Below, in pieces: positions 6,797-53,066 of a stretch of 64,000 nt of DNA. Position 1 is the stretch's first letter, and the number at the start of each line of letters is the position of its first letter. This DNA is from Flavimarina sp. Hel_I_48 (GTDB lineage: Bacteria; Bacteroidota; Bacteroidia; Flavobacteriales; Flavobacteriaceae), in contig NZ_JPOL01000002.1 in NCBI RefSeq assembly GCF_000733945.1, positions 1,613,001 through 1,677,000 of the forward strand, given 5' to 3'. The notes under the pieces were generated by a model, which searched no databases, was not told the origin of the DNA, and saw nothing but the letters and a program-made list of their open reading frames with translations. A program made the translations under genes and the position numbers.

Positions 6797-6820
6797 TTGT
6801 TTTTAAATATATATTGCGAA

Positions 6821-6847
6821 AAAGCCTCGAGAAATCGGGGCTTTTTT
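6821..6847 (+). terminator. rho-independent terminator of the OmpA gene
   Basis: A 10-bp stem (6821-6830 with 6835-6844, one wobble pair) with a GAAA tetraloop is followed by a T run. It ends about 13 nt before the ATG of the next gene. Confidence 0.9.
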
Positions 6848-6859
6848 TATTTTTAGGTT

Positions 6860-21320: not shown

Positions 21321-22132
21321 TATTCAGGTTTATTTAAAGATTTTGAAAAAATCCATGTAAATAGTTCGGGTTCTGCAAAAGCTTGATCCCAACTGTTGTG
21401 ATTGGCATTATCGTATAAATTCATTTTTGGGTGTGCACCCGCTTTCAGCAGCGCTTCTGTCATTTTTACTGAATAAAGAGGGTCTACCACATCATCAAGT
21501 GCGCCATGAAAAATCCAAAGCGGTGTATTCTTAGCATATGCGGAAGCCGTTTCTGGCGCAGCACCACCACAAATAGCGATCGCTGCTGCAAAAGTATTAG
21601 GCTTACGGTATAAAATCTCATACGTGCCCAGTCCACCCATGGAAAGTCCACCTACATATATCCTATTTTGATTTATAAACGGTTTATTTTTAAGACTATC
21701 AAGTAGGTTCATGACCTGATCAAGTGCCTTTGTAGGTTCTCCGCCATTTTTAAATGCAAACTTTACTCCGGGACCGCTGCGATCTACATCAGCATTTGAC
21801 CAATAATCATCCTGTGGGCATTGCGGAAAAACCACAACTGCAGGGAATTTTTTTCGGTTTAGGTCGTTCAAAAACAGTTGGCTGCCGTGAATCAGTTGTT
21901 TTTCATTATCACTCCCACGCTCTCCCGCGCCATGTAAAAACAATACTAGAGGATACGATTCTGATTCTGAAAAATGTTCAGGATATAAAATCCTATAGTT
22001 TAGGGAATCTCCATTTACAACGAAAAACTCCCTTTTAAACTGTTCCTTTTCCTGCCCAAAAGCCAAGGTAACAACTATCATACCTAGTATAAGAACAAGT
22101 TTATGTACTATTTTAGTCAATATATCGGTCAT
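21320..22132 (-). CDS. secreted esterase/peptidase-like alpha/beta-hydrolase
   Basis: A 270-residue hydrolase of the PhoX/feruloyl-esterase-like type often annotated as prolyl oligopeptidase or phospholipase/carboxylesterase. A hydrophobic N-terminal segment (about 9-26) is a signal peptide. LFLHGAGERG is at 65-72. The triad is Ser164 in GGLSMGG, Asp213 or Asp214 in GALDDVVDP and His245 in NANHNSW. It is translationally coupled to the GH3 gene. Removal of ester decorations from the glycan is an inference from context. Confidence 0.82.
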   Translation of the reverse strand: MTDILTKIVHKLVLILGMIVVTLAFGQEKEQFKREFFVVNGDSLNYRILYPEHFSESESYPLVLFLHGAGERGSDNEKQLIHGSQLFLNDLNRKKFPAVVVFPQCPQDDYWSNADVDRSGPGVKFAFKNGGEPTKALDQVMNLLDSLKNKPFINQNRIYVGGLSMGGLGTYEILYRKPNTFAAAIAICGGAAPETASAYAKNTPLWIFHGALDDVVDPLYSVKMTEALLKAGAHPKMNLYDNANHNSWDQAFAEPELFTWIFSKSLNKPE

Positions 22133-22184
22133 TTGTAATCATTTATGGATGTTTTAGGCAGTTTTCTGATTGTTTTCAGTAAAA

Positions 22185-23570
22185 TTAATACCTGAATTCA
22201 AGCTTGTCAAGCCCCGCTTGTATTTGTTCATTTTGCATAAATAAATTCCACAATAGGCCTGTACGGTAATTTTCGATCATGATAATTTGGGGTCCTTGAT
22301 CAATGGCAAGATAGGCTTCGGCAACCCAATCATATTGCGGACTAAAAGCGTCGTAAAATCCCGCCGGGCCAAGTAATTTCTCCCGATTTTCATTAAAATT
22401 ATAAAGGGCAGCAAGTGATTTTTCTGAAGTATATGGAATACTGCTTATGGCCGCAGTGGGCGAGATCACACCGGCATCATTTCCCGGTCTGTGCGCATTG
22501 TATCCTAAACTCCCATCCGCGTTACGGGAATAGCTCGCGGTCAACCCCCATAACTTCTCGCCATAATCACGATAGCCCAACGGATTTTCCACGCAATATG
22601 AATAATTAATCAAACTGTGATTGACATTTACATCCCAATAGTTTGAGTATGCATCGGCCAGATTTCTGGGATCAAGTCCTAGATAGGAATAATGTGCCCA
22701 GAACAAGGGACCGCCCATTTCTTCTGCGCCATCGTGTTTTACTAGTAGTGGATAGTTATAGGCTGTATTTGCAGATTGAATACCGCCATTACGGGCCCAA
22801 CCGGCATCATATACGGCCTTTTCAATTCCAAAATCAGTTGAAGCTGCGGCGAGGATATAGGGAAGCAATGTCTCATTGTATCCCCTTAGTTGAAGATTAA
22901 TACTGAAACCGGTATTCGGACTCCAATGCCAGTATAGAACGTTCTCGTTTTGAGTAAAAAAATTCCATTCTATACTGTTGACAAGATCAAAAGCTTGTTT
23001 AGAAAGTTGCTTTTCCCCTGCAGAACCATCCTTTAAATATTCTCCCACAGTGATCAATCCCTGTGCAAGAAAAGCGGTTTCTACCAGATCTGCACCGTCA
23101 TCTTCTGCGCTAAAGGGAATAACATTTCCGGTAGACCCATTGATCCAATGCGGCCAGGCACCGTGAAAACGATCAGCGTTTTTTAAAAAACCCAAGATTT
23201 GAGTAAACCGTGCCACGCCTTCTGGACGGCTAATAAATTGGCGTTCTATACCAACGATAATACTCATCAGGCCAAAACCCGTACCACCAGTAGTTACTAT
23301 ATTTTGATCTTGTGAAGCGTTGGCAGGAATATAACGCTCACGGGCTGCGCCGGAATTTTTTTCGGCAAAATCCCAGAAATACTTAAAAGTTTCCCGTTGG
23401 GTAAGATCAAGAAGATCAGCCTCACTGATTTCAGGATCTGATGCAGGAGGCTGGGAATCTTCAGGATCTACAACCGGGGGGACTTCTTCCTGAACTGCGT
23501 CTCCACTATCTGAAGAACAGCCCACGAAAAATAGAATTCCTATTATAAATAAGTATTTTGCAAAATTCAT
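22185..23570 (-). CDS. GH144-type glucanase lipoprotein (copy 2)
   Basis: A member of the 'glucoamylase' Pfam family that contains the GH144 beta-1,2-glucanases. The chosen ATG at 23570 gives a 461-residue protein starting with a lipoprotein signal (FFVGC, Cys18). A longer in-frame start would overlap the upstream gene and hide the signal, so I rejected it. The catalytic (alpha/alpha)6 domain contains GGTGFGLM, ADRFHGAWPHW, DLVETAFLAQGL, LYWHWSPN and GPLFWAHYSYLGLDPR. It begins 2 nt after the stop of a paralogue that shares all these blocks. The two copies probably split endo and exo or disaccharide-releasing roles. Confidence 0.85.
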   Translation of the reverse strand: MNFAKYLFIIGILFFVGCSSDSGDAVQEEVPPVVDPEDSQPPASDPEISEADLLDLTQRETFKYFWDFAEKNSGAARERYIPANASQDQNIVTTGGTGFGLMSIIVGIERQFISRPEGVARFTQILGFLKNADRFHGAWPHWINGSTGNVIPFSAEDDGADLVETAFLAQGLITVGEYLKDGSAGEKQLSKQAFDLVNSIEWNFFTQNENVLYWHWSPNTGFSINLQLRGYNETLLPYILAAASTDFGIEKAVYDAGWARNGGIQSANTAYNYPLLVKHDGAEEMGGPLFWAHYSYLGLDPRNLADAYSNYWDVNVNHSLINYSYCVENPLGYRDYGEKLWGLTASYSRNADGSLGYNAHRPGNDAGVISPTAAISSIPYTSEKSLAALYNFNENREKLLGPAGFYDAFSPQYDWVAEAYLAIDQGPQIIMIENYRTGLLWNLFMQNEQIQAGLDKLEFRY

Positions 23571-23571
23571 G

Positions 23572-24951
23572 CTATTCAAGATAAGGGCTTGTGAAGCCCA
23601 GTTTGCGCAGACCATTCTGCACATCTTCATTATTCATAAAAAGCTTCCATAAAAGTCCACTTCTATAATTTTCGATCATTACGGGGATAGGGCCCTGATC
23701 TATTGCAAGATAACGTCGTTCATACCAGTTGTCCTGAAGACTAAAGGCGTCATAAGGACCATATTTTCCAATCAACGTATCTTCTTTAGTATACATAAAG
23801 TTCAAAAAACGCTCGCTTTCCTTCGGTGTATAAGGCATGCTGGAAAGTGCTGCCGTGGGCGAAATAACACCCAGATCGTTACTGGGCTGATGACCCGCAT
23901 ATCCATTCATGGAATAGCTTGAGGTCATTCCCCACATATCTTTTCCATAACCTTTAAAACCCTTGGGGTTATCAACCGCATATTTGTACTGTATCAAAGC
24001 GTGATTTGTATTCAGCTCCCAATAATCAGCATATTGATCTTTGAGTCCGTTAGGATCAAGCCCTAAATACGAATAATGTGCCCAGAAAAGTGGCCCTACG
24101 GGATCATCCCCATCTGGGTAGTGATCAAGCACCGTTTTTAAGCCATACATCATCGTATCATTCTTAATATTTCCACCTCGCGCCCAGCCTTCTTCGTAAA
24201 TCTTTTTAGTAATGGGGTGTGTGGGAGAAGCTGCAGCCAGCACGTACATTATAAGTGCTTCGTTGTAACCGGTAACGGCAAAGTTCATGTCCCAGGTATA
24301 CTTGGGCGACCAGTGCCAATAGAGCACATTTTTTCCTTGCGTATACCAGTCCCATTCTACTTCTTCCCAAAGGATATTGATATCTGCTGCAAGTTGTTTT
24401 TCGGCTTCATTACCGTCCTGATAATATTCTTTAACGGCAAGCAACCCTTGAACCAGGAACGCTGTTTCTACCAGGTCACCGCCATCATCCTTCTTACCAA
24501 AAGGTTTCACTTTTCCTGTGGTTCCATCCAGCCAATGTGGCCAGGCACCGTGAAAACGGTCAGCTTTCCCAAGAAAATCCACCATTTTCTGAAAACGCTC
24601 AAAACCTTCCTTTTTAGGTATAAAACCGCGTTCTATACCAGCTAAAATAGCCATAAGTCCAAAACCAGTACCCCCTATGGTGACCGTGTTTTTATCATTG
24701 CTGGGATAAACCCCGTCCATGTGGATACGCTCTGATGCCAGGCCAGAATCTGGATTGCCACCATCCCAGAAATAATTTATGGTCTGCTGCTGCACCGTAT
24801 CCAGTAAGGCTTCCGTAGAAACGGAATCTGCCGCCGTTGTAGCAACGGCAGCAGATTTCTGTTCATTTTCCTTGTTCTTGCAGCTTATGGTTAAAACGAT
24901 AAGCGCAAGAACCAAAACAATTTTATTCCTATGTGTTTTTAAGTTTACCAT
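23572..24951 (-). CDS. GH144-type glucanase lipoprotein (copy 1)
   Basis: Paralogue of the next gene, 459 residues. A lipoprotein signal ends at LTISC (Cys24), followed by a Lys/Glu-rich linker suited to surface exposure. Family blocks are GGTGFGLM, ADRFHGAWPHW, DLVETAFLVQGL, VLYWHWSP, GPLFWAHYSYLGLDPN and AIDQGPIPVMIENYRSGLLW. Characterised GH144 enzymes cleave beta-1,2-glucan or release sophorose, and I apply that here by family membership. The gene overlaps the end of susD by 7 bp. The assignment to the family is firm; the linkage specificity is inferred. Confidence 0.86.
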   Translation of the reverse strand: MVNLKTHRNKIVLVLALIVLTISCKNKENEQKSAAVATTAADSVSTEALLDTVQQQTINYFWDGGNPDSGLASERIHMDGVYPSNDKNTVTIGGTGFGLMAILAGIERGFIPKKEGFERFQKMVDFLGKADRFHGAWPHWLDGTTGKVKPFGKKDDGGDLVETAFLVQGLLAVKEYYQDGNEAEKQLAADINILWEEVEWDWYTQGKNVLYWHWSPKYTWDMNFAVTGYNEALIMYVLAAASPTHPITKKIYEEGWARGGNIKNDTMMYGLKTVLDHYPDGDDPVGPLFWAHYSYLGLDPNGLKDQYADYWELNTNHALIQYKYAVDNPKGFKGYGKDMWGMTSSYSMNGYAGHQPSNDLGVISPTAALSSMPYTPKESERFLNFMYTKEDTLIGKYGPYDAFSLQDNWYERRYLAIDQGPIPVMIENYRSGLLWKLFMNNEDVQNGLRKLGFTSPYLE

Positions 24952-26366
24952 CCTGGATTCTGAGTCATTTCTGGTGTTTGTATCAATTGGTTGTTCGGTA
25001 TGGGAAACAAATAGTTTCTTTCCTGAAAGGGAAGACCCAGTGCTGTCATTACAGCAGCAGCCTTTTTTGTCCTGACGAGATCAAACCAGCGGTCATGCTC
25101 CATAGCTAGCTCCAGTCTTCTTTCCAGAAAGATTGCATCGCCTAATGCCGATTGATCTGTAGTTGTAATATCATCTAAATTTACGCGGTTACGCACTTGA
25201 TTTAAAGGCGCTAAGGCAGCAGCTGATTGACCTAACTCATTTAGCGCTTCCGCGCGAATAAGTAACAGTTCTGCATAGCGAAGTACACGAATATTCTTAT
25301 CTGTGTCTTCTTGATCTGTATATGCTGAAGAATAGGCTTTCTCATTATATCTAGGATTTTCAACCCCGGCACTTACTTCTCTCCCATCAAATAAAGTTTC
25401 CCCCGCAAAAATGATGGTGGCATCCCGGCGAATTGAATCGCCGGCTGCGTTATAGGCATTCAATAAATCTTCAGAAGGTGTGTTAAAGCCCCAGCCCCAT
25501 CCACCAGCGCCACGGGCACCTTGGGTCATTGAATATTGTTGCACACCGTGTGCAATGATTTCCCCACGGGCCTGAATTTCAAAAAGGGATTCCATTCCAT
25601 TTTCTGTAGATTCCCTCCATACGGTTGCATAGTCTGGCTCAAGGCCATAAATGCCAGAATTGATCACATTATTGGTCATATCTGCGGCCTCCTGCCATTT
25701 TTCCTGGTATAAATATACTTTTGCAAGTAAACCCTGTGCGGCACCCTTTGTGGCGCGGCCAAGATCCTGAGCGGCATATTCACTTTTTAATGGCAAAGCA
25801 GCTATTGCATCCATTAAATCCTGCTCAATATACTCGTAAACCTCAGCCTTTGGCGCGCGGGCTATAAGATCTATTTCCTGAATGGGCACATCTCCAAAAG
25901 AACGTACCAACCAGAAATAGTTGAGCGCACGAAGAAATTTTGCCTCACCCATGAGGCGGGAACGTAAGTTTTCATCAATATTGGCATCATTTTGAGTAAT
26001 CTCTATAGATTGTGATGCACGTCCAATTGTTTTATACCATAATTCCCACATACTCCGTATAGAAGGTGATGATGTAGTATAGGTCAAACCATCCAGCAAA
26101 TTTTTGTCGGCTCCGGTATCTGTGGGCGAACTCCCTTTGTCCGCATTATCTGAAATGATTTCGGTAATACCTAAAAAGGAGAACGCATAACTAAAGTCAG
26201 TATGCATACCATAAACGCCGGTTAAAAAGTCAGCTGGTGTAAAATCATCACCACTATCTGCAGCAACTGGGTTTATTACCTCCACTTCTTCTACAAATTC
26301 ATCACATGAAGTAACTGCGAAGCCCATAAAGAGGCTGCATATACCTAATTTATATATTGTATTCAT
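24945..26366 (-). CDS. susD: SusD/RagB-like glycan-binding lipoprotein
   Basis: Surface lipoprotein that captures glycan fragments and closes over the SusC channel. It has 473 residues with a lipobox ending at Cys21 (AVTSC). The TPR-rich helical fold typical of SusD appears as GEAKFLRALNYFWLVRSFGDVP, KGAAQGLLAKVYLYQEKW and RYAELLLIRAEALNELG. It ends with a standard PNNQLIQTPEMTQNPGW tail. It follows susC by 17 nt and overlaps the first glucanase gene. Confidence 0.95.
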   Translation of the reverse strand: MNTIYKLGICSLFMGFAVTSCDEFVEEVEVINPVAADSGDDFTPADFLTGVYGMHTDFSYAFSFLGITEIISDNADKGSSPTDTGADKNLLDGLTYTTSSPSIRSMWELWYKTIGRASQSIEITQNDANIDENLRSRLMGEAKFLRALNYFWLVRSFGDVPIQEIDLIARAPKAEVYEYIEQDLMDAIAALPLKSEYAAQDLGRATKGAAQGLLAKVYLYQEKWQEAADMTNNVINSGIYGLEPDYATVWRESTENGMESLFEIQARGEIIAHGVQQYSMTQGARGAGGWGWGFNTPSEDLLNAYNAAGDSIRRDATIIFAGETLFDGREVSAGVENPRYNEKAYSSAYTDQEDTDKNIRVLRYAELLLIRAEALNELGQSAAALAPLNQVRNRVNLDDITTTDQSALGDAIFLERRLELAMEHDRWFDLVRTKKAAAVMTALGLPFQERNYLFPIPNNQLIQTPEMTQNPGW

Positions 26367-26383
26367 AATGAGTTTTTTTAATA

Positions 26384-29300
26384 TTATAACTGAAAGTTAG
26401 CTCCAAAGATGAACGTTCTCGTTGTGGGATAAGCTGACAATTCTACGCCAGTTGTTCCCTGAGGGTTTCCATCCTGATTCAATTCCGGCGTAAAGCCAGA
26501 ATAGTTAGTGATCATAAACGGGTTTTGTAAAGTCACATAAAGCCTAGCTTTACTGATAACTGAAAAGTCCTCAAACGTGTAGCCTAAGGTGACGTTGTTC
26601 AACCTGAAATAATCACCATCTTCCAACCAATAAGAGGACGCCAATGCATCTCTATTAGAACCTGGCTTTGAAGCTGAAGTATTGTCTGGTGTCCAGCGGC
26701 CGTTAAATAAATCAACAGGTATATTCTCAACACCCAGACGTGTATTTGCAAGGCCATTATACACTTTGTTCCCACCTACACCAAAACCATCTACACTAAA
26801 GTCAATATTTTTGTAGTTTACACCTATATTGATACCGTAGTTAAATGTGGGGATATAATTTCCGTAGAATTTTTTGTCCCTGTCATCAATAACGCCATCA
26901 TTGTTTTGATCTACATAACGCAAATGTCCTGCCGCAGCATTACCTATTGAAGCATTATCATCAATTTGCTCCTGTGATTCCCATACGCCGTCAGACTCTA
27001 GCAACCACCAGGCGAAGATGGGCTGGCCACCCTGCAATCTCTTCGTGATTTGCCCATTACTCAAATCTCCTCCTATTGCACCATCGTAAGCTGGCTTAAC
27101 GTTCTGCACCCTATTTTTATTGGTAGAAAGGTTAAAACCTACATTGTAGCTGAAATCCTGACCTATCTGATCCCTCCAGTTTACTAAAAATTCAAAACCG
27201 CTATTGGTTATTTCGGCAGCTTCATCAAAGAAATTATTACTGTATTCTGAATTAAGAAGGGGTCTAACTTCAAGGATTGCATTAGTATTTGTACGATCAT
27301 AATAATCTATGGTACCTGATAACTTACTGTTAAACAGACCAAAATCAAAACCGAATTCCCATTCTTCGGTTACCTCCCACGAAATAGGAAACGCCGGGCT
27401 GCCCAAAGCTGCTCCTAAATTTAGACCTTGTGAAGGGCCAAATACATAATTAGTATTGCCACTTCCTGCTTCCGCGACTATAGATTGTACATTAAAAGGA
27501 ACATTGGCATTACCCAACTTACCCCAACCTGCAAAAAACTTCAAATTAGATAACCAGTCCGTATTTTCCATAAAGGCCTCATTAGACATGGTCCAACCTA
27601 AACTCACTGCCGGGAAATAATCAAAGTAATTCCCATCTCCTGTAGCAAAATCACTGGTTCCATCCCTTCTCAGTACACCTCTTACGTAATATTTAGAATC
27701 ATAATTGTATTCTACCCTTCCAAAATACGACTGTAGGTTTGTAGATTGAAATTCATCCCCTGTAGTCTGATCCACGGAATCATCAAAAATCCTGTCGGTT
27801 CTGTAACCAAAACTTCTAAGACGCTTTTGATTGTAAACATCATAAGCCAGGGCTGTAATTCTCTCTCCTCCGCCAAAATTTTCACGACTTAGACCCAGGG
27901 TTGCACTAATGTCATGCTTATCAAAGGTCTTTGTGTAAGTAAGGAAACTTTCTAAGTTCCATCTAAAAGATTCAACACTTTGCACTTCATACCTGTTATT
28001 TGCGTATTGTGTAGAAACCTCTCCATCACCATCAGGATCTGTGCGTTGCTCATCAAAAAACGCTGCGGTCCTACTAGGATCTCCATTAAGCCATTGGGCC
28101 CTTATGTCATTAAAATCATGTCGCTTAGAATAAAACTTGGTAGCCCCAAAACGGGTCGTGAGCATCAAATCATCTGTAAGGTCAAGTTCCGCACTGAGCT
28201 GACCCTGTAGCGTGGTTGTGTTTATGTCTTCATCTGCAAAAAATACACTGGCTACTGGATTCCCTGCCTGGTTCAATCTCCCCAAGGTTTCCCCTGGACC
28301 CACTTGATAACCTACTACGCCTGTGGTCTGATTCACAAAAGACTGACCAAAGAGTCCATTATCATAATAAACCGGCACTAAAGGCGATTGACTGTAGGCT
28401 TGACTAAAGGCGCCAAAAGGTTTTGGTCTCTCTTTTGTATAAGTAATGTTCAAATTAGAAATGATCCTGAATTTATCATCAAACATGTGGTACGTATTGT
28501 TATTTCTAATAGTACCCCTTCTATAGGTTGCATCTTGTAGAATACCTTCTTCCTGATACAGGTTATAACTTAAAAAGTAGTCAATATTATCCCCAGCACC
28601 AGAAACAGAGAAACTGTTATTGTTGATATTACCTACCTGTAACAATTCATCATACCAATCTGTATCATAGGCCTGATTAGGTGCTAATTGAAAACTTCCT
28701 GTTGCTGCACTAGCCTCATTGAAATATTGACGATACTGCGCTCCATTAGCCATATCTACTTTATTAAGGATACTCCGTGCACCATAGTAAGATTCTAACC
28801 TAAATACAGGAGCTCCCTTTTTTCCTTTTTTGGTTGTAACCAAAATAACACCGTTTGCTGCTCGTATACCATAAATGTTAGCATAAGAGGCTCCTTTTAA
28901 GAAATCTATACTCTCAATGTCATTAGGGCTGATACTTCGTATATCAGAAACCGGCTGGCCATCTACAACGTAGAAAGGGTCCCTACCACCTTCTGATGTA
29001 CCCAGACCACGCATAATAACCGTAGGGCTTGATCCTGGTGAGTCGTTAGAGACAATGTTTACACCGGCAACTTTACCCTGTACAGATTGTAGGGCACTGG
29101 TTGCAGGCTGCTTTGATATTTCTTCAGATTTCACAGAGACTACCGCCCCAGTAATATCGCTCCTTTTCTGGCTACCATATCCTACGACTACTACCTCATC
29201 TAGATCACTAGCGGCAGATACCATACCTACATTGATTTCAGATTGGTCTGCGACAGGAACTTCTTTCGTCTCGAAACCTAAATAAGAATACGTTAATACA

Positions 29301-29503
29301 TCCCCGGATGATGCGTTTAGGGAATAATTTCCGTCAAAATCAGTCTGGGTGCCTGTTGTGGTTCCTTGTATTACAATATTGACACCCGGCAACGGCCCCC
29401 CGGTATCATCTGTAACTGTACCCGTAATTGTTTTGTCTCCTTGCGCCCAGGCGAGCGAAGTGAACATCATCAGGAAGAAGATGAACTGTAACTTTGTTTT
29501 CAT
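26384..29503 (-). CDS. susC: SusC/RagA TonB-linked outer membrane transporter
   Basis: TonB-dependent channel for oligosaccharide import, 1039 residues. After the signal peptide (ends about WAQG) comes a carboxypeptidase-regulatory-like domain (about 24-100, PLPGVNIVIQGT and DFDGNYSL). A plug domain with SDITGAVVSV, LQSVQGKVAGVNI and a long barrel ending in FIFGANFQL follow. The EVVVVGYGSQKRSDI block is typical of SusC. It is the first gene of the operon, paired with susD. The 349-nt upstream gap holds a -7 element. Confidence 0.95.
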   Translation of the reverse strand: MKTKLQFIFFLMMFTSLAWAQGDKTITGTVTDDTGGPLPGVNIVIQGTTTGTQTDFDGNYSLNASSGDVLTYSYLGFETKEVPVADQSEINVGMVSAASDLDEVVVVGYGSQKRSDITGAVVSVKSEEISKQPATSALQSVQGKVAGVNIVSNDSPGSSPTVIMRGLGTSEGGRDPFYVVDGQPVSDIRSISPNDIESIDFLKGASYANIYGIRAANGVILVTTKKGKKGAPVFRLESYYGARSILNKVDMANGAQYRQYFNEASAATGSFQLAPNQAYDTDWYDELLQVGNINNNSFSVSGAGDNIDYFLSYNLYQEEGILQDATYRRGTIRNNNTYHMFDDKFRIISNLNITYTKERPKPFGAFSQAYSQSPLVPVYYDNGLFGQSFVNQTTGVVGYQVGPGETLGRLNQAGNPVASVFFADEDINTTTLQGQLSAELDLTDDLMLTTRFGATKFYSKRHDFNDIRAQWLNGDPSRTAAFFDEQRTDPDGDGEVSTQYANNRYEVQSVESFRWNLESFLTYTKTFDKHDISATLGLSRENFGGGERITALAYDVYNQKRLRSFGYRTDRIFDDSVDQTTGDEFQSTNLQSYFGRVEYNYDSKYYVRGVLRRDGTSDFATGDGNYFDYFPAVSLGWTMSNEAFMENTDWLSNLKFFAGWGKLGNANVPFNVQSIVAEAGSGNTNYVFGPSQGLNLGAALGSPAFPISWEVTEEWEFGFDFGLFNSKLSGTIDYYDRTNTNAILEVRPLLNSEYSNNFFDEAAEITNSGFEFLVNWRDQIGQDFSYNVGFNLSTNKNRVQNVKPAYDGAIGGDLSNGQITKRLQGGQPIFAWWLLESDGVWESQEQIDDNASIGNAAAGHLRYVDQNNDGVIDDRDKKFYGNYIPTFNYGINIGVNYKNIDFSVDGFGVGGNKVYNGLANTRLGVENIPVDLFNGRWTPDNTSASKPGSNRDALASSYWLEDGDYFRLNNVTLGYTFEDFSVISKARLYVTLQNPFMITNYSGFTPELNQDGNPQGTTGVELSAYPTTRTFIFGANFQL

Positions 29504-44818: not shown

Positions 44819-44849
44819 TATTAATTCTAAATAAATATTACTAGTTTTG
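44819..44849 (+). promoter_or_regulatory. promoter and candidate metal operator of the ankyrin-DUF2271-PepSY operon
   Basis: TAGTTTTG at 44842-44849 is a full -7 match. Immediately upstream, TATTAATTCTAAATA (44819-44833) matches at 13 of 15 positions the perfect palindrome in the promoter at 49236-49250. No TTTG -33 box exists because the palindrome occupies that place. The predicted leader is about 110 nt. Confidence 0.5.
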
Positions 44850-44968: not shown

Positions 44969-46462
44969 ATGAAAAAAGCTTTGATTTTACTAATACTCCT
45001 AACTATTTCAACAGCCTTTTCGCAGGAGGAAAATATTTTATTGGAACGTTCATTCTGGGAAAAAAATCCAGACCTCACCATCGTAAAAGAACAGATTGCG
45101 GCTGGGAATGATCCTGCCCAATTTGCAAGTAATGCTTTTGATCCTGCGGTTTTAGCAACCCTAGGCGGAGCGAGTAGTGATGTCATTAGCTATTTATTAT
45201 CATTTGAAGGCAACGATGTTAATAAAAAAACACATGATAGCCGTACCTATATTTTCTGGGCCGCTTATGCAAACCGCCCTGAGATTATGAAACAGCTTCT
45301 TGAAAAAGGTGCAAAGCTTGATGTAACAGATAGCCATGGCTACACTCCCGTTGCGTTTGCCGCGAATGGAGGGCAGACCAATCCTGAAATCTATGATCTT
45401 TTTGAAGAATACGGTGTCGTTCTGGCTAATGAAAAAACAGATCATGGAGCCAATTTACTTCTCTTGCTTTCCCCAAATATGGAAACAGCAAAGGATATGG
45501 ATTATTTTATCACTAAAGGCATCAACCCAAAAGAAAAAGATGATAGCGGTAACGGGATCTTTAATTATGCTGCCCGTAAAGGCAATATTTCATTCCTGCA
45601 AAGTCTTGTTGATAGAGATTATGATTACAAAACATTAAATAAAGAAGGTGAAAATGCTTTTCTATTTGCGGCACAGGGTAGCCGTGGGCATACTAATTCC
45701 CTTGACCTTTTTGAATATCTTAATGCCTTGGGACTTGATCCAGCAGTAGTCACAAAAAAAGGTGAGACTGCCTTGCACAGTTTGGCCTATCGTTCAAAAG
45801 ACATGGACGTTCTGAACTTTTTTCTGGAGAAAGGTCTTGATGTTGATCAAGCGAATGCAGAAGGAAATACACCTTTGCTCAACGCGGCCTCAAGAAACAA
45901 GTTGGATATTGTAAATTTTCTTTATACTCATTCTAAAAATCCAGAGGCTACCAATGAGCAGGCGCAAACTCCCTTGATGCTGGCATTACAGAATAACAGC
46001 CCAGAAGTTGTAGATTTCTTTTTAGAGAAACAAAAAAAGCCAAACGATCAAAAGGACAATAACAATAACTCGCTCGCCTATTATCTTGTTGATGGTTATA
46101 GCCCCAGAAATAAAGACGCTTTTAATGCCAAGCTGGACCTCCTAAAAAAGCATAAAATCGCATTAAATACAGTCCAAAACGAAGGAAATACCGCTTTACA
46201 TATTGCGGCAAAAACGAATAATCCTGACCTCCTCAAAGAAGTTGCTTCATGGAACATCCCTATCAACGCGATAAATGATGAAGGATTAACCGCATTGCAT
46301 ATCGCAGCAATGAAAGCTCAAAATGATGAGGTTTTGAAATATCTTATCGCTCAGGGCGCAGATAAAAATGTAAAAACATCTTTTGAAGAAAGTGCTTACG
46401 ATCTGGCAAGCGAAAATGAATTGTTAAAGGAAAACGGGGTTGCCATAAAGTTTTTAAATTAA
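44969..46462 (+). CDS. periplasmic ankyrin-repeat protein
   Basis: A 497-residue protein with a signal peptide (MKKALILLILLTISTAFSQ). The rest is built of ankyrin repeats, for example NRPEIMKQLLEKGAKLDVTD, GYTPVAFAANGG, GETALHSLAYRSKD, GNTPLLNAASRNKLDIVNFL, GNTALHIAAKTNNPDLL and GLTALHIAAMKAQNDEVLKYLI. No enzyme domain is seen. It should act as a protein-binding scaffold in the periplasm. It starts the operon with the DUF2271 and PepSY genes (14-nt and 9-nt gaps), so it probably helps assemble or protect the redox partners. Confidence 0.88.
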   Translation: MKKALILLILLTISTAFSQEENILLERSFWEKNPDLTIVKEQIAAGNDPAQFASNAFDPAVLATLGGASSDVISYLLSFEGNDVNKKTHDSRTYIFWAAYANRPEIMKQLLEKGAKLDVTDSHGYTPVAFAANGGQTNPEIYDLFEEYGVVLANEKTDHGANLLLLLSPNMETAKDMDYFITKGINPKEKDDSGNGIFNYAARKGNISFLQSLVDRDYDYKTLNKEGENAFLFAAQGSRGHTNSLDLFEYLNALGLDPAVVTKKGETALHSLAYRSKDMDVLNFFLEKGLDVDQANAEGNTPLLNAASRNKLDIVNFLYTHSKNPEATNEQAQTPLMLALQNNSPEVVDFFLEKQKKPNDQKDNNNNSLAYYLVDGYSPRNKDAFNAKLDLLKKHKIALNTVQNEGNTALHIAAKTNNPDLLKEVASWNIPINAINDEGLTALHIAAMKAQNDEVLKYLIAQGADKNVKTSFEESAYDLASENELLKENGVAIKFLN

Positions 46463-46475
46463 GAAAGTTCAATTT

Positions 46476-46961
46476 ATGAAAAAGTTATATAGAATAGTTC
46501 CAGTGCTTTTACTTGTCGGTTTTTTAATCGTAGGCTTCACTGCGGCCGATAAGAAAACCGTAAAATGTCTCATCCAGATGACTAATTATGAGGGTGAAGG
46601 TGCTTATATGGTCGTTTCCCTCTTAAATCCAGAAGGCGAATATGAAGAAACACTTTATGTACAGGGAACTGATGATGAGTGGTACAGCGAAATCACCGAA
46701 TGGTGGCAGTTTTATTCTAAGGAAAGTTCTAATATCGATGGGATTTCCGGCGCGACCGTTAGCGGTGGTGAGCGTAGTGTAAGTGTTCTTCAAATTCCGG
46801 TAGATAAAATTGACAAAGGCTATCAACTACGCTTTGAAACATCTGTGGAAGACAAAAAGTATTATAAAGATGACCTTCAGTTTGAACTCACCTCTGAGAA
46901 TTTAAAAAGCAAAAAAGAAGGTAAAGGCTTTATTCGCTACGTGCGCATGCTTGCTCAATAA
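46476..46961 (+). CDS. DUF2271 periplasmic protein with an ApbE-type flavinylation motif
   Basis: A 161-residue exported protein with a hydrophobic N-terminal signal (about 5-24). The body is a beta-sandwich-like DUF2271 domain. Residues 88-96 read DGISGATVS, which fits the Dxx(S/T)GAT pattern at which ApbE attaches FMN to threonine (here Thr94). DUF2271 proteins next to PepSY membrane proteins have been proposed as periplasmic electron carriers. I infer that this protein passes electrons from the PepSY reductase to ferric chelates. No apbE gene lies in the window. Confidence 0.8.
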   Translation: MKKLYRIVPVLLLVGFLIVGFTAADKKTVKCLIQMTNYEGEGAYMVVSLLNPEGEYEETLYVQGTDDEWYSEITEWWQFYSKESSNIDGISGATVSGGERSVSVLQIPVDKIDKGYQLRFETSVEDKKYYKDDLQFELTSENLKSKKEGKGFIRYVRMLAQ

Positions 46962-46970
46962 ACCTTGCCC

Positions 46971-49163
46971 ATGACGCGTTCGCTATGGCGGTATAGCCAT
47001 TTTATCCTGGCTCTCACCTCTTCCCTTTTTTTATTGATCGCAACCCTTACCGGAGCCATTCTTGCGGTAGAGCCCATTGCTCATCAGGCCAAGGGGTATG
47101 CTGCCAGTAATTTAGAAGAGGTTCCGCTGGCTCAAACGCTAAGGATATTAAAGGAAAACTACGAAGAGGTTTTCACCTTAGAAGTTGAACCCTCAGGATT
47201 TGTAAAAACTTCGGTTTTAAATGCAAATTTTGAAAGTCTGGATCTTTACATAGATCCGCTTACGGGAGAATCCCTGGGCAAAGTTGCGCCGCGCTCTTCC
47301 ATTTACCAGTTTGCCACTACCCTACATAGATCGCTATTTTTAAAAGGATTGGGCCGCTTTTTTGTTGGTCTGGTCTCTTTATTGCTTTGCCTGATCGCCA
47401 TTTCCGGTATTTTATTGCTGGCACAGCGGCAAGGTGGGTTCAAACAATTCTTTTCTAAAGTAAGGGATCGCAATTTTGCCCAGCGCTACCATGTCATTTT
47501 GAGCCGGTGGTTTATCCTGCCCATTATTATTATCGCTACCACAGGCGTTTATCTTTCCGCGGAAAAATTCTCCCTGCTTCCCGATACAAAAACAGTCAAA
47601 ACACAGATAAAATCACCTGATTTTAAGGTGATTTATGATCATATTTCGGATATTCCGCTGTTTCAGGAACTCAAACTTGCCGATGTACGTAAAGTGGATT
47701 TCCCATTTTCTACAGATCCCGAAGAATATTACAACATTGCCCTGGAAGATCAGGAAATTGAGGTAAATCAGCAAACAGGGGCAGTAATAAGCCGTAGAGA
47801 TTACCCATTTGTGACCTTAGCTACCCGCTTTAGCTTGCTTACCCATACCGGTACGGGAAGTGTTTTATGGTCGGTAATACTTTTGCTCAGTAGTTTATCC
47901 ATTTTATTCTTTATGTATTCTGGTTTTGCGATCAGTCTGAAAAATCGAAAAAAGGGCTTTTCCATAAAAAAAATGCCGCCTAAAGAAGATTGTGAATATA
48001 TCATTCTGGTGGGTTCAGAAATGGGAACCACTTTTACCTTTGCGCACCAACTTTACAACGCACTGAGCGCTTGTGGCAAAAAGACTTTTCTGGCACCGCT
48101 CAATGCATATACCACATTTAAAAATGCCAAAAAAATATTTATACTTACCGCTACATACGGTAAAGGCGATGCTACCACAAATGCCCGAAAATTCACCCAA
48201 TTATTACCTAAAATCGCCCAAAATCAGGTAGATTTTGCCGTTTTGGGCTTTGGTTCTACCCAATATCCCGACTATTGTAAATTTGCCGTTGACATTGACT
48301 ATTTATTGCAACAGCAGCCTTCCTTTAAGCAATGTTTGAAACTGCATAAAATCAATGAGCAATCTGCTGAAAGCTTTCAATCCTGGGTTCACGCGCTGGC
48401 TGATGTGCTTGGCATCCCTTTGCAGATTAAGCATCAAAAAACAGCAAAAAAGGTCGAAAAACAACGACACTTCGAAGTAATACGCCGTAGTGAACTTAAT
48501 GTGGATGACACTTTTCTGCTTTGGCTAAAGCCGAAAAAGAAAGCCAAATATCAATCTGGGGATTTGCTTGCGATTGTTCCGCCAGGACAGCAGCTTGCAA
48601 GGCAATATTCTATCGCTAAAGTGGACAAAAATATAGTGCTCAGCGTCAAAAAGCACGAACAGGGAATTTGTTCGCCTTATCTGAGCAGTTTATGGAAGGG
48701 TGACAAATTAAAAGCTAGCATTCAGCAGAATATACATTTCCATTTACCAAAAAATAACTCCCCGGTATTTATGGTTGCAAACGGTACGGGAATCGCCCCT
48801 TTTTTAGGAATGCTTAGCAGCCGGAAAAATCGAAATAGTATATTACTCTGGGGAACCCGTACAAAATCGTCTTCAGAACTTTATAGAACACTTCTGGAAA
48901 AACACCTCGCAACTAACAAAAACCTGACCTTTGAAAAATGCTATTCCCGAGAAGGTAACAAAACTTATGTTCAGGACCTGGTTTTACAAAATCAAGAAAG
49001 ATTGATAACTACGTTTGAAAAGGGTGGCACGCTCATGCTTTGTGGATCATTAGCCATGCAGCGCGATGTACTATCAACTGTAGAGCAACTATTGCAAAAA
49101 GCCAATAAACCTGCCCTATCCTACTACGAAGAAAAAGATCAGGTAAAACTGGATTGTTACTGA
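46971..49163 (+). CDS. PepSY membrane reductase fused to FMN and FAD/NAD(P) domains
   Basis: A 730-residue inner membrane flavoprotein. The N-terminal half (about 1-320) is a PepSY-associated TM domain with four main helices and histidines likely to bind heme (RYSHF, TTLHRS, RYHVILSRW, LTHTGTG). A flavodoxin-like FMN domain follows (about 340-480, VGSEMGTTFTFA and TATYGKGDATT). Then comes a CPR/sulfite reductase-type FAD and NAD(P)H module (about 490-730, RQYSIAK, VANGTGIAPFLGM and TLMLCGSLAMQRDV). It should carry electrons from cytosolic NAD(P)H to the periplasm. It resembles XusC with an added diflavin module. The ATG at 46971 was chosen over a TTG six bases upstream. Confidence 0.88.
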   Translation: MTRSLWRYSHFILALTSSLFLLIATLTGAILAVEPIAHQAKGYAASNLEEVPLAQTLRILKENYEEVFTLEVEPSGFVKTSVLNANFESLDLYIDPLTGESLGKVAPRSSIYQFATTLHRSLFLKGLGRFFVGLVSLLLCLIAISGILLLAQRQGGFKQFFSKVRDRNFAQRYHVILSRWFILPIIIIATTGVYLSAEKFSLLPDTKTVKTQIKSPDFKVIYDHISDIPLFQELKLADVRKVDFPFSTDPEEYYNIALEDQEIEVNQQTGAVISRRDYPFVTLATRFSLLTHTGTGSVLWSVILLLSSLSILFFMYSGFAISLKNRKKGFSIKKMPPKEDCEYIILVGSEMGTTFTFAHQLYNALSACGKKTFLAPLNAYTTFKNAKKIFILTATYGKGDATTNARKFTQLLPKIAQNQVDFAVLGFGSTQYPDYCKFAVDIDYLLQQQPSFKQCLKLHKINEQSAESFQSWVHALADVLGIPLQIKHQKTAKKVEKQRHFEVIRRSELNVDDTFLLWLKPKKKAKYQSGDLLAIVPPGQQLARQYSIAKVDKNIVLSVKKHEQGICSPYLSSLWKGDKLKASIQQNIHFHLPKNNSPVFMVANGTGIAPFLGMLSSRKNRNSILLWGTRTKSSSELYRTLLEKHLATNKNLTFEKCYSREGNKTYVQDLVLQNQERLITTFEKGGTLMLCGSLAMQRDVLSTVEQLLQKANKPALSYYEEKDQVKLDCY

Positions 49164-49231
49164 TTAAGTCCTTCTTTATCAAACCTATTATCTGGCTATT
49201 TAAATTAATTATAAATAATTTCACATATCTA

Positions 49232-49262
49232 TTTGTATTTAGTCTAAATAAGGTTATTTTTG
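49232..49262 (+). promoter_or_regulatory. promoter with palindromic operator of the TonB receptor gene
   Basis: TTTG (49232-49235), 19 nt, TATTTTTG (49255-49262) match both consensus boxes. The spacer holds the perfect 15-bp palindrome TATTTAGTCTAAATA (49236-49250), where a bound repressor would block RNA polymerase. The promoter shows that the true start codon must lie downstream of 49262. Confidence 0.75.
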
Positions 49263-49277
49263 CCTAAAATTCATTTA

Positions 49278-51698
49278 ATGCCGCGAATAATACTCTTATT
49301 TCTAATTTTAATTTCTGGGATAGCTCATGCGCAGTATGATATTCAGGGCATTGTAAAAGACCAGAATGGCTATGTGGTAACTGGTGCGGAAATCATAGTA
49401 TCTAAATCTGGTTTGAAGAAGAGCACATTCTCAAATGCTTCTGGTACTTATATTCATAAAGATATGAGTTCCGGAACTTATGTAGTCCAAATAAATAAAG
49501 ACGACTATATAGAATATCAACAGGTAATCGTGACCGATGATCATGTCAACTTTGATATTCTCATCAATGATCTTTCTGATTATGAACTCGGCGATGTGGT
49601 TATTCAAATTGAATCCATCAAGTCTGAAATTGAAAAAAAAGGATTTGCCGTAAATGTTATAGAAACCGAAGCAGCTTCCTATCAAAACTTACAGACTAAT
49701 GAACTGCTTAACCGATCGGTGGGAGTAAAAGTGCGGCAAAATGGGGGCATGGGCTCTTCGGTAGATTATAATTTAAATGGACTATCTGGAAATTCGATCA
49801 AGATGTTTATAGACGGAATTCCTATTTCCACTTATGGTTCTTCCTTTGACCTCAACAGTATCAACCCTGCGATGATTGAACGTATAGAGGTTTACAAAGG
49901 TGTTGTTCCCGGTGAACTTGCAGATGATGCGCTGGGCGGTGCCATTAATATTATCATGAAGAAAAACCGGTCCAACAATCTGAGCGCCTCGCTGTCTTAT
50001 GGATCGTTCAACACCACCCAGGCCAACTTTAACGCTACTTACAATTCAAAAACTTCAGGTTTTTATACACGTGCCTCTGGCTTTTACAATTATTCTGACA
50101 ATGATTATGAAGTCTGGGGAAAATTCGTTCGCAATATTTTACCGAATGGTCGCTACGATTATGTCAGGGCAAAACGCTTTAATGATGCTTTCCGTTCGTA
50201 TGGAGGTGTTGTAGAACTGGGTTATAATCAGGTAAAATGGGCAGATAATTTTTCTGTGGGCTATACCAATTCAGATTCTTACAATGAGATTCAGCATGGT
50301 GCATTTATGTCTATTCCTTACAAAGGCAGGTTTGTTGAGGCGCATGCAGATGTGTTCAACTTAACCTATAACAAAGCGAATATCGTTGATGGCCTGGATG
50401 TGAACTTTCAGGGCATCTACAGCAAGCGTAAAACAACAGTAAACGATACCGTACCATATAATTATAACTGGTTTGGCGAATTGAGCCGTGATCTGGACGG
50501 AGATCCTATTTTACGCCCACAGGGCGCGCAGCAGGGTGAACCTACTATCGCAAATATAAACAGGGAGATTTTCTCCTTTAGAAGTGGTATAGCCTATAGC
50601 CTTTCGGAACAGCACAAATTCATTTTCAACCATCTTTTTTATGATATCGCCAGGGAGGAAGATGATGAGATCAAGTCTGATCTGCAACGCAATTTTATAG
50701 GGACACGCGACCTGCGGAAGAATGTTTCTGCGCTTACCTATGAAATGCGCTTATTGGAAAACAGGTTCAAATCGACTGTTTTCGGTAAATATTACCAGCA
50801 AAATGTCCAAAAAATGGATCCTATTGCCGAAAATCAAAATGGGGAAACAGTACGTGTTGAAAAATATTTCAGCAATAAGACCAGTACACTGGGGTATGGC
50901 ACTGCGGTTTCATATTTAGCCATGCCTGCATTAGTCCTTCTAACCTCTGCGGAAAAAGCGGTACGCCTGCCCTCTGAAAATGAAGTTTTTGGCGATGTGG
51001 GCGAGAATATTGTCGAAAATCCAGGAATAGACGCAGAACGTAGCAATAATTTCAATCTGGGCTTTAAAGCCGGTCTTTACAAAATAGGGGAACACAAATT
51101 TTCAATAGGTGCTTCTGGTTTCATTCGCGATACACGGGATAAGATTGTAAGACAAACCCAAACCAACCTCAATGATGCGATTCAAACCGCCCCTTTTGAA
51201 AATTTGGGACGTACAAAATCCATCGGTTTTGATGCAGAACTCAGCTATATTTTTAGGGATAATCTCAATGTGCTTGTCAATTTTTCAAAGTTTGATACCC
51301 GTTACAATACAAAATACGATATGAATGGTGAAGTACTCAGCCTTTATGACGTGCAGATTCCCAGCGAACCTTTTATGACTTCAAATGCTAATGTAAACTA
51401 TCATTTTGAAGACTTTGTTCAAGACAACAGCGTCCTGAGCGTATTTTATAACCTTAGTTATGTAGACTCATTTTACAATATCTGGGTGCCCCAGAAAGTC
51501 AGTGGTATTGATCAGTTTAAAGTTCCCGCGCAACTCATTCAAGATGTAGGGGTAAGTTATGCTTTCCCGAACAAGAACCTAGTAGCAAGCCTTGATATCA
51601 AGAATATATTCAACAAACAGGCCTACGATAATTTTGCCGTTCAGAAACCGGGCAGGGCCTTTTACCTCAAACTAAACTATACACTTAATAATTTCTAA
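49278..51698 (+). CDS. TonB-dependent siderophore/heme receptor (XusA-like)
   Basis: An outer membrane transporter of 806 residues. A signal peptide ends at IAHAQY (about residue 18). A carboxypeptidase-regulatory-like domain covers about 20-105. The plug (about 110-225) contains GFAVNVIET, NRSVGVKVRQNGG, IKMFIDGIP and ERIEVYKGVVP. The barrel ends in FYLKLNYTLNNF with the terminal Phe. An in-frame TTG at 49260 lies inside the promoter and was rejected. It is followed by a DUF4374 lipoprotein gene 10 nt later, the XusA-XusB order known for xenosiderophore uptake. The exact ligand is unknown. Confidence 0.9.
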   Translation: MPRIILLFLILISGIAHAQYDIQGIVKDQNGYVVTGAEIIVSKSGLKKSTFSNASGTYIHKDMSSGTYVVQINKDDYIEYQQVIVTDDHVNFDILINDLSDYELGDVVIQIESIKSEIEKKGFAVNVIETEAASYQNLQTNELLNRSVGVKVRQNGGMGSSVDYNLNGLSGNSIKMFIDGIPISTYGSSFDLNSINPAMIERIEVYKGVVPGELADDALGGAINIIMKKNRSNNLSASLSYGSFNTTQANFNATYNSKTSGFYTRASGFYNYSDNDYEVWGKFVRNILPNGRYDYVRAKRFNDAFRSYGGVVELGYNQVKWADNFSVGYTNSDSYNEIQHGAFMSIPYKGRFVEAHADVFNLTYNKANIVDGLDVNFQGIYSKRKTTVNDTVPYNYNWFGELSRDLDGDPILRPQGAQQGEPTIANINREIFSFRSGIAYSLSEQHKFIFNHLFYDIAREEDDEIKSDLQRNFIGTRDLRKNVSALTYEMRLLENRFKSTVFGKYYQQNVQKMDPIAENQNGETVRVEKYFSNKTSTLGYGTAVSYLAMPALVLLTSAEKAVRLPSENEVFGDVGENIVENPGIDAERSNNFNLGFKAGLYKIGEHKFSIGASGFIRDTRDKIVRQTQTNLNDAIQTAPFENLGRTKSIGFDAELSYIFRDNLNVLVNFSKFDTRYNTKYDMNGEVLSLYDVQIPSEPFMTSNANVNYHFEDFVQDNSVLSVFYNLSYVDSFYNIWVPQKVSGIDQFKVPAQLIQDVGVSYAFPNKNLVASLDIKNIFNKQAYDNFAVQKPGRAFYLKLNYTLNNF

Positions 51699-51708
51699 AA
51701 TTAGATCT

Positions 51709-53066
51709 ATGAAAAATCGATTCAATAAATTTTTTACTTATGCCGCGCTGGCAGGGCTTTTAGGCTTTTCAGTAAGTTGTAGCAATGATGACTCCATTGA
51801 TGATCAGACCGGTGGTGAAACTGAAAACCCCACAACAGAAGATAGCCGGTGGTTTACGGTAGCTGGTGCAATTATGGATGAAACCCGGGAAATGGCAATG
51901 GCGGGACCATTCTATATTCCATTTCAAAAGAAGATGCACAAAATCCTGATTTTGAAGTTGACGTTTTCAAAGGTTATCAGGTACGTTCACAGCGTACGGC
52001 GAGATTACAATCTTCAGTAGATGGAGCTACTATGTTCAATATCGCTTATGGTGGTGATATAGGCGGTGAATTTTCTAAATATAACGTAGAAGGCGGTGCA
52101 GATTTTGTTCCCACTGGTGGAGTGGTAAATATTTCTCAATATGCAGGAACGTCCCCGCGATGGGTAAAGCTTTTTGACGGTGATAAAACAGGTGTTGCTG
52201 CAAGTGTAACTTCCCCACAAGTCAATGAGGGCGATACTTATGAATATACCAGGGGTACAGCGACGCTTGTGTCTATAGATATGGAAGATGTACTTATTTC
52301 TAAAAACAATTCGTTTGAAATCCCTTTACAGCCAGAAGAAGAATTGCTGGGTCACTACATTTTCAGATTGGATGCACCTGTTCTCAATGCTGCAAAAGAT
52401 AAACTTATTGTAGGAACCTGGATGGGTAAAACAGACCCTGCAACTGGAGAGCGCGATGCGAATCCTTATGAAAGATTAGGTTCAAAATCTGTAATTGTTG
52501 ACTATCCCTCACTAGAAAACCCTACAATCATAACGTCCACAGTGGGTCACGGTGATACCAGTGGATATCGTAGTTTTAATAGTTTTTTAGGCGATGACGG
52601 CAGTATTTATCAGGCTACACAAAGGGATTCTGAAGGATCTCATATCTTAAAAATCAATGCAGATAATACGTACGACAACACGTATGTCTTTAGTCTTGAT
52701 AATGCCCTAAGTATTACCAATTCATACATTGAAAGCTGGAGATATGTTGGGAATGGTATCGCTTATGTTATGTACACCCATGACGGTGCGAGCGCGTCAA
52801 ATTTCAATACGGGTCAGCAACAGAGCTTTCTTGCCCGTGTAGATCTTAATGCACGTACAGCAACACGCGTAGATCTTCCCTATGATCCAGACATGTACTT
52901 TTTCCAGTACCAGGGGTTTGCGGTAGACGGTGATAATGTATATGTAAGCATCTCCCCTGTGGGAAAAGATGGTAACATTTACATTTTAAATAGCGTAACG
53001 GGCGATGTTACTAAAGGTGCAAAATTGCTTAATGAAGCAGGCAACCACTTTATAGGCGTATTTTAA
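51709..53066 (+). pseudogene. DUF4374 surface lipoprotein (XusB-like), broken by a one-base deletion
   Basis: The reading frame runs from ATG 51709 with a lipoprotein signal (FSVSC, Cys24) to about 51885. There it shifts; the remaining frame, open from there to 53066, continues the same protein. After the shift the sequence NGGTILYSISKEDAQNPDFE and SQRTARLQSSVDGATMF follow without a break. One missing C in the CCC run at 51884-51886 explains everything: adding it restores DETPGNGNGGTILYS. The restored product is about 452 residues, a beta-propeller-like DUF4374 protein that would capture a ferric siderophore at the cell surface. It may be a true mutation or an error of sequencing in a homopolymer. 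Confidence 0.85.

Follow-up and report, generated by a model that had tools for sequence, protein, structure and literature searches.

The subject of this analysis is a 64,000-nucleotide window (positions 1,613,001 to 1,677,000 of contig NZ_JPOL01000002.1, forward strand, assembly GCF_000733945.1) from the 4.14 Mb genome of Flavimarina sp. Hel_I_48; coordinates are counted from its first letter. It was found that the genes at 44969 to 53066 probably form a two-module iron-assimilation locus, in which a portable periplasmic reductase is joined to a XusA/XusB-like uptake part under an iron-responsive operator. The reductase module, or cassette, comprises an ankyrin-repeat protein, a DUF2271 protein and a PepSY protein fused to flavin mononucleotide (FMN) and flavin adenine dinucleotide (FAD)/NAD(P)H modules. 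Named relatives of the locus genes are mostly from Flavobacteriaceae. The genes are the following:

44969..46462, plus strand: ankyrin-repeat protein of 497 amino acids, cassette gene 1 (Ank_2, 202 bits)
46476..46961, plus strand: DUF2271 protein of 161 amino acids, predicted covalent FMN carrier, cassette gene 2 (PF10029, 128 bits)
46971..49163, plus strand: fusion of PepSY_TM, FMN and FAD/NAD(P)H modules, cassette gene 3 (PF03929, PF00258, PF00175)
49278..51698, plus strand: TonB-dependent receptor with CarboxypepD_reg domain, XusA/MxcH-like (Plug, OMP_b-brl_3)
51709..52020, plus strand: broken lipoprotein, first piece, with signal peptide, lipobox-like Cys, acidic stretch and early mature part
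51894..53066, plus strand: broken lipoprotein, second piece in another frame, with most of the XusB-like beta-propeller

Profile matches with E-values far below chance bear out the initial annotation in its first four genes, which are real, open and consecutive on the plus strand. The cassette genes are tightly packed, with 13 and 9 bases separating ankyrin, DUF2271 and PepSY. The first Met of PepSY is placed at 46971 (the third residue of an open reading frame (ORF) listed from TTG 46965), as it is invariant in 19 of 19 sequences, and the receptor is taken to start at ATG 49278 instead of the listed TTG 49260.

Ninety-nine loci were compared: the window, 18 full-length PepSY matches from a set of 99 genomes, and 80 named relatives, which were the best 80 of 338 confirmed ones. 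In 92 of the 99 loci, DUF2271 and PepSY are accompanied by an ankyrin protein of the window's family; the query alignment was mostly built from cassette members, and this figure is therefore valid for close relatives and not for every diflavin PepSY. About seven genes upstream and five downstream were covered, with genes called mechanically, and two of the loci (L047 and L087) have the same protein sequence and are probably from one species. Seven loci were without ankyrin and DUF2271; three of them (L110, L117 and L131) start at a contig edge, and the other four (L056, L092, L121 and L135) are without them next to PepSY. Among the 99 genomes, DUF2271 was found in 19 (Flavimarina included) and the diflavin PepSY in all of these, with exceptions in layout for G028, where PepSY lies in two contig pieces, and G035, where it is not beside DUF2271. 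Only G027 had PepSY without DUF2271 (a partial match in a genome that is 84% complete). Because of this co-location, and because compact sets occur without any of the receptor clusters used, the core is made up of ankyrin, DUF2271 and diflavin PepSY, in some loci together with ApbE, and is not XusABC. The initial annotation had missed that the ankyrin protein belongs to the core, that the core also occurs in heme loci, and that the reductase is of a mostly heme-type lineage.

The ankyrin protein has a start that looks, by eye, like a signal peptide, and hence it is probably periplasmic. Its identification as a Dot/Icm effector was rejected, as the NCBIfam matches were far below their cut-offs and were put down to shared repeats. 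Some arrangements outside the common pattern were also observed. In Capnocytophaga (L092, L121 and L135) the diflavin PepSY has neither ankyrin nor DUF2271 neighbours, and in L092 and L121 the next gene, of about 1,030-1,050 codons, encodes a large protein that looks secreted. In G013, DUF2271 lies inside a DUF6607/HmuR/HmuY-like cluster (L178:7980-13375) with no ankyrin or PepSY recognised nearby, and the diflavin PepSY of that genome sits on a different contig.

DUF2271 of the window carries SGAT at residues 91-94, an ApbE-type site. In the alignment of 92 DUF2271 sequences (window included), [S/T]GA[S/T] was found in 75, xGET in 13 and AGAT in 4, and the last motif position was T or S in all 92. 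Flavinylation of DUF2271 by ApbE has been shown in another species, with a conserved [S/T]GA[S/T] site (PMC8238504), and the window protein is thus predicted to carry FMN covalently. A sequence search of the PDB gave no DUF2271 relative. The cassette had a gene of the ApbE cluster within reach in 15 loci out of 99, several of which were compact ankyrin-DUF2271-PepSY-ApbE sets without a receptor, in the sense of none of the receptor clusters used. ApbE was present in 91 of the 99 genomes, so that its co-occurrence is uninformative. The Flavimarina genome has two ApbE genes, both outside the window, and one is apparently part of an NQR cluster, judged by the appearance of its neighbours. One of the two (L062:4912-7876; ApbE at 6447-7427) adjoins a secreted-looking protein of 438 amino acids and a small secreted protein; this neighbourhood is perhaps a separate flavinylated set, possibly DUF3570-like.

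The fusion first proposed for the third cassette gene is supported: a single protein joins a diflavin, NADPH-reductase-like module to a four-His transmembrane PepSY part, as seen in its domains and conserved residues. Residues 1-330 contain four hydrophobic segments with His12, His121, His176 and His294 at the segment ends, and these were conserved in 97, 99, 99 and 99 of the 99 sequences, respectively, both His12 misses being gaps. According to the positive-inside rule, His12 and His176 would face the cytosol and His121 and His294 the periplasm, an arrangement that would form two stacked bis-His hemes, as in FoxB. Residues 345-732 resemble the P450-reductase and nitric oxide synthase reductase domains of solved structures. 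R546, Y548, S549, C693, D730 and the C-terminal Y732, FAD positions among them, were kept in 96-97 of the 99 (2 gaps), and the window protein has the complete set of NADPH-type residues S661, R662, K666, Y668 and Q670; we presume the usual roles for these residues. Across the 99 proteins S661 and Y668 were found in 97, Arg at 662 in 65, Lys at 666 in 59 and Gln at 670 in 78. Since the NADPH-type residues are complete here and variable among relatives, NADPH is the likely donor for the window protein, but relatives may not all use it.

In the mechanism proposed, cytosolic NAD(P)H would donate electrons to the FAD and then the FMN of the diflavin PepSY, from which they would cross the inner membrane through the two bis-His hemes and reach the flavinylated DUF2271 in the periplasm. 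DUF2271 would in turn reduce a ferric complex brought in by the uptake module, a XusA-like receptor with a XusB-like surface lipoprotein, and the Fe(II) freed would enter the cytosol via FeoB; the genome has a strong FeoB_N match. The ankyrin protein would probably act as a periplasmic scaffold or adaptor which docks the carrier to its partner or substrate.

The receptor of the window gave 381 bits with the MxcH model, under the cut-off of 925. Eight distinct DUF4374-linked receptors (nine rows of the comparison, as one gene is entered twice) belong to the cluster of the window receptor or match it best among the reference clusters, and the window receptor is thus a member of a family that adjoins DUF4374 genes. 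In the tree, the DUF4374-linked receptors form a clade of their own (100/100) apart from the window receptor, and the likeness to the XusA type was judged via these receptors and not via XusA.

The gene after the receptor had been described as a DUF4374 lipoprotein, a description which does not hold. It is not one open gene: the part with the signal peptide and lipobox (51709-52020) and the rest (52032-53066) are in different frames, the second ORF being listed from ATG 52032 with its reading frame open upstream to about 51880. The Pfam profile DUF4374 (PF14298) had no match in either piece at E up to 10, nor in two intact relatives, and none in the whole Flavimarina genome, though the same model was positive in 8 of 149 genomes; membership by Pfam profile was therefore rejected. 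Remote homology between the lipoprotein family and DUF4374 was clear with an eight-sequence profile and weak against one DUF4374 sequence (52%). The kinship with XusB that the initial annotation had seen is borne out by structure comparison, where the structure predicted for an intact relative has a fold like that of B. fragilis XusB, and the family accordingly has a XusB-like fold as modelled. A sequence search of the PDB gave no relative of the lipoprotein. The second piece is 35-67% identical to 22 aligned relatives and 71% to L177, and intact copies were found in relatives. The frame break may be biological or a sequence error; the ORF list of the window showed, by eye and without homology check, no second clearly split gene, which is neutral with regard to an error.

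The genes next to the cassette were compared over the 99 loci. The context was heme-type in 47, siderophore-type in 24 and neither in 28, with labels that rest on sequence clusters and a Pfam check of HmuY in three loci and DUF6607 in one. In the heme set, an HmuR-like receptor and/or an HmuY-like lipoprotein was present in 40 and DUF6607 alone in seven. The siderophore-type receptor (window included) was accompanied by a XusB-like lipoprotein in 23 loci and by a DUF4374 one in L048. In a PepSY tree of the 99 proteins, which was of the quick type with long rows included, the window falls in a clade of eight rows with 99% support by the Shimodaira-Hasegawa-like approximate likelihood ratio test. 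Its seven clade-mates are six heme-type loci (four HmuR/HmuY, two DUF6607 alone) and one unassigned. Context labels cluster on this tree (0 of 500 shuffles were as low), and at least five switches between heme and siderophore were counted over 71 rows, the 28 unassigned rows left out; the number falls to four over 64 rows when the seven loci with DUF6607 alone are also left out. When the siderophore label was set against heme and unassigned together, 11 changes were obtained, some of the unassigned loci being cut by contig ends (L110, L117 and L131).

The cassette partners of PepSY point the same way. For ankyrin and DUF2271, respectively, the identity of the window proteins was 51-52% and 71-74% to the heme-type loci L039 and L040, 40-43% and 42-49% to the siderophore-type loci L050, L053, L054 and L055, and 42% and 55% to L048. 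The window receptor groups with siderophore-type loci from Flavobacterium, Paenimyroides, Faecalibacter, Pedobacter and one metagenome-assembled genome (eight rows, 98/96), and lies outside a clade (100/100) of nine receptors from the same genus. The nine same-genus genomes (L167-L175) have receptor and XusB-like lipoprotein with no PepSY recognised within about 8 kb. The lipoprotein piece likewise groups with siderophore-type loci (eight rows, 90/86; ten rows, 99/97; long branches present), and its nearest row is a pair without cassette in G041 (L177). Receptor and lipoprotein stand downstream of the cassette in the window and upstream of it in most of the siderophore-type loci compared. DUF6607 had no match in the Flavimarina genome and was positive in four of four control relatives; HmuY also had no match there, in a search without a positive genome control. 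The simplest reading of these trees is that a heme-type reductase cassette would have shed its heme genes and come to lie next to a siderophore module of other origin, both the loss and the transfer being suggested by the groupings.

Two observations on gene arrangement may be added. In G010, of the same genus, an island of about 27 kb (L179 and L048) has a receptor-DUF4374-ankyrin-DUF2271 set without its own PepSY, then DUF6607/HmuR/HmuY, then a gene of the AraC cluster and finally receptor-DUF4374-esterase-ankyrin-DUF2271-PepSY, as if one reductase served several carriers. The Flavimarina genome has two more pairs of a TonB receptor and a short PepSY (L057:3885-7580 and L058:4117-7508), with no room for a flavin module.

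With regard to iron control, the following elements were found upstream of the two modules:

44819..44833, plus strand: weaker palindrome copy TATTAATTCTAAATA upstream of the ankyrin gene, 2 mismatches
44842-44849, plus strand: TAGTTTTG, after the weaker palindrome
49232..49262, plus strand: promoter-like pair TTTG-N19-TATTTTTG enclosing the palindrome, candidate Fur-type operator of the receptor
49236-49250, plus strand: perfect 7-1-7 palindrome TATTTAGTCTAAATA between the promoter boxes, the sole exact match in the window

Pairs of the promoter consensus (TTTG and TATTTTTG, spacing 17-23, both strands) occur only four times in the 64 kb window. At up to three mismatches the palindrome was found 12 times in the window, which is no excess, since shuffled sequences had a mean of 7.9 and 10 of the 100 shuffles gave as many. 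For the neighbouring genes of the loci compared, the search pattern was the palindrome of the window itself. A site with at most two mismatches to it precedes 14 of 24 receptors in the window's cluster (window included) vs 14 of 922 other neighbour ORFs. Such sites were also found ahead of 18 of 41 heme-type receptors, 18 of 46 DUF6607 genes and 9 of 13 AraC-type regulators next to receptors of the window's cluster (one regulator assigned by Pfam); these groups are not independent since divergent genes share sites. The palindrome is a putative Fur site. In Riemerella anatipestifer, B739_0173-0177 are listed as a receptor, a hypothetical protein, an ankyrin protein, a 'predicted periplasmic protein' and a 'nitric oxide synthase', and are up in iron limitation with log2 values of 3.31, 3.64, 2.41, 3.06 and 1.05, respectively (PMC5429918). 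Fur was also reported to repress B739_0173 and to bind to the promoter of this gene (PMC7976709). The names of the fourth and fifth genes would suit DUF2271 and a diflavin protein. Iron control of the window locus is likely.

Several observations weigh against the two-module proposal. In the available sequence the lipoprotein gene is broken, and the locus has no ApbE gene, the genome's two being elsewhere. For more than a quarter of the cassettes (28/99), neither heme nor siderophore genes were recognised in the neighbourhood. An AlphaFold model of PepSY, made from the single sequence without alignment, had a predicted local distance difference test score of 42, too poor to place the His residues, and hence the heme geometry is proposed from the sequence. 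The site before the ankyrin gene is weak, and sites with at most two mismatches were found at only 8 of 93 ankyrin genes; as they are so rare there, operons may usually start further upstream. Cassette and receptor have separate upstream regions, and might therefore be regulated independently of each other. The Riemerella genes were matched through order and annotation, not sequence, and the motif named at their promoter is a Fur box of the E. coli type and not this palindrome (PMC7976709).

One alternative is that in this organism the cassette continues to act on heme or a different ferric substrate, and that the receptor-lipoprotein pair downstream is a neighbour in decay, transcribed separately from a promoter of its own. 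In favour of this, the clade that contains the window PepSY is mostly heme-type, a separate promoter-like site precedes the receptor, the lipoprotein is broken, and the nine same-genus genomes keep the receptor-lipoprotein pair with no PepSY recognised near it. Nevertheless, this explanation is doubtful, since neither HmuY nor DUF6607 was matched in the genome, the receptor is encoded by an intact gene, whose operator is the one exact palindrome match in the window. Another explanation takes the locus as an intact, normal XusABC-type system, where the frame shift stems from an error in sequencing or assembly and the diflavin module takes the place of an unknown electron donor of XusC. The second lipoprotein piece is well conserved, as would be expected of a gene broken very recently or only through an error, the lipoprotein family is present in the cassette locus in 23 of 99 cases, and the true DUF4374 genes of G010 have ankyrin and DUF2271 beside them and, in one case, the diflavin PepSY as well. 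However, the initial annotation's match of gene order to XusABC fails: BT2063-2065 have the order PepSY - DUF4374 - TonB (PMC10434189) and the window PepSY - receptor - lipoprotein, with no match in either direction. Moreover, the DUF4374 loci of six other genomes (six of the eight with matches) have a PepSY of 372-548 codons and no recognised ankyrin or DUF2271, the 548-codon protein has PepSY_TM only, and the lineage of the window PepSY is mostly heme-type; an ordinary XusABC system is hence unlikely. A third possibility, that the PepSY protein is a ferric-siderophore permease and not an electron carrier, has been proposed for Alteromonas PepSY genes (PMC7190382). It is highly improbable here, as the fused diflavin module and the four conserved His fit electron transfer, and the PepSY_TM protein FoxB was described with two heme-binding sites (PMC11334425). 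The two-module locus is retained as the probable reading, but not as the "complete" reductive release path first claimed, given that the lipoprotein gene is broken and siderophore reduction is a predicted step.

The locus resembles several known systems in part. With XusABC of B. thetaiotaomicron and B. fragilis (PMC13142918, PMC10434189) it shares the receptor family, a XusB-like propeller lipoprotein and PepSY in one locus; unlike XusABC, the window adds the diflavin fusion, DUF2271 and ankyrin, its lipoprotein is outside Pfam DUF4374 and broken, the order differs, and an iron response is only predicted. In the survey of flavinylated systems by Meheust et al. (2021, PMC8238504), PepSY_TM was clustered with DUF2271 and iron reduction was proposed, an NAD-binding domain was found on the PepSY protein (1077), and TonB receptors were present in 231 clusters. 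The loci described here differ in their constant ankyrin partner, whereas the frequent secreted partner in the survey is DUF4198 and the word 'ankyrin' has 0 occurrences in its main text (PMC8238504), and also in that the cassettes stand beside HmuY/HmuR heme loci, with uptake modules switched. As to the HmuY/HmuR heme loci of Bacteroidota, 47 of the 99 cassettes adjoin such genes, while the window genome is without an HmuY or DUF6607 match. The siderophore reductases FoxB (7ABW) and HiuABC likewise have PepSY_TM with paired conserved His, but no fused diflavin module is mentioned for them in the accessible portions of these sources. The cassette, which occurs in heme as well as siderophore loci, is classed here as a variant form of flavinylated PepSY system. 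In the portions of the open-licence literature covered, no discussion was found of ankyrin, DUF2271 and PepSY as a unit, nor of a tie between DUF2271/PepSY and HmuY; 'DUF6607' had 0 occurrences among the matched open-licence papers that were listed, and PMC5429918 tabulates such genes, in the portions covered, without comment. Elsewhere in the window, 19053-29503 on the minus strand holds large secreted-looking genes which resemble a polysaccharide utilisation locus, judged from the sequence starts alone.

A broader proposal is put forward tentatively. Bacteroidota may possess a substrate-independent periplasmic reductase, made of ankyrin, flavinylated DUF2271 and diflavin heme PepSY with or without ApbE, that has repeatedly been plugged into heme or siderophore loci; the ankyrin protein would dock it, and in heme loci it would reduce heme or heme iron outside the cytosol. 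What drives periplasmic iron release in Gram-negative bacteria is only partly understood. If the proposal is true, heme and siderophore uptake would have in common one testable electron route from NAD(P)H to the periplasm, the redox genes in the heme-uptake loci of many Flavobacteriaceae would be explained, and a function would be given to an iron- and Fur-linked gene set whose members are listed singly in the Riemerella data.

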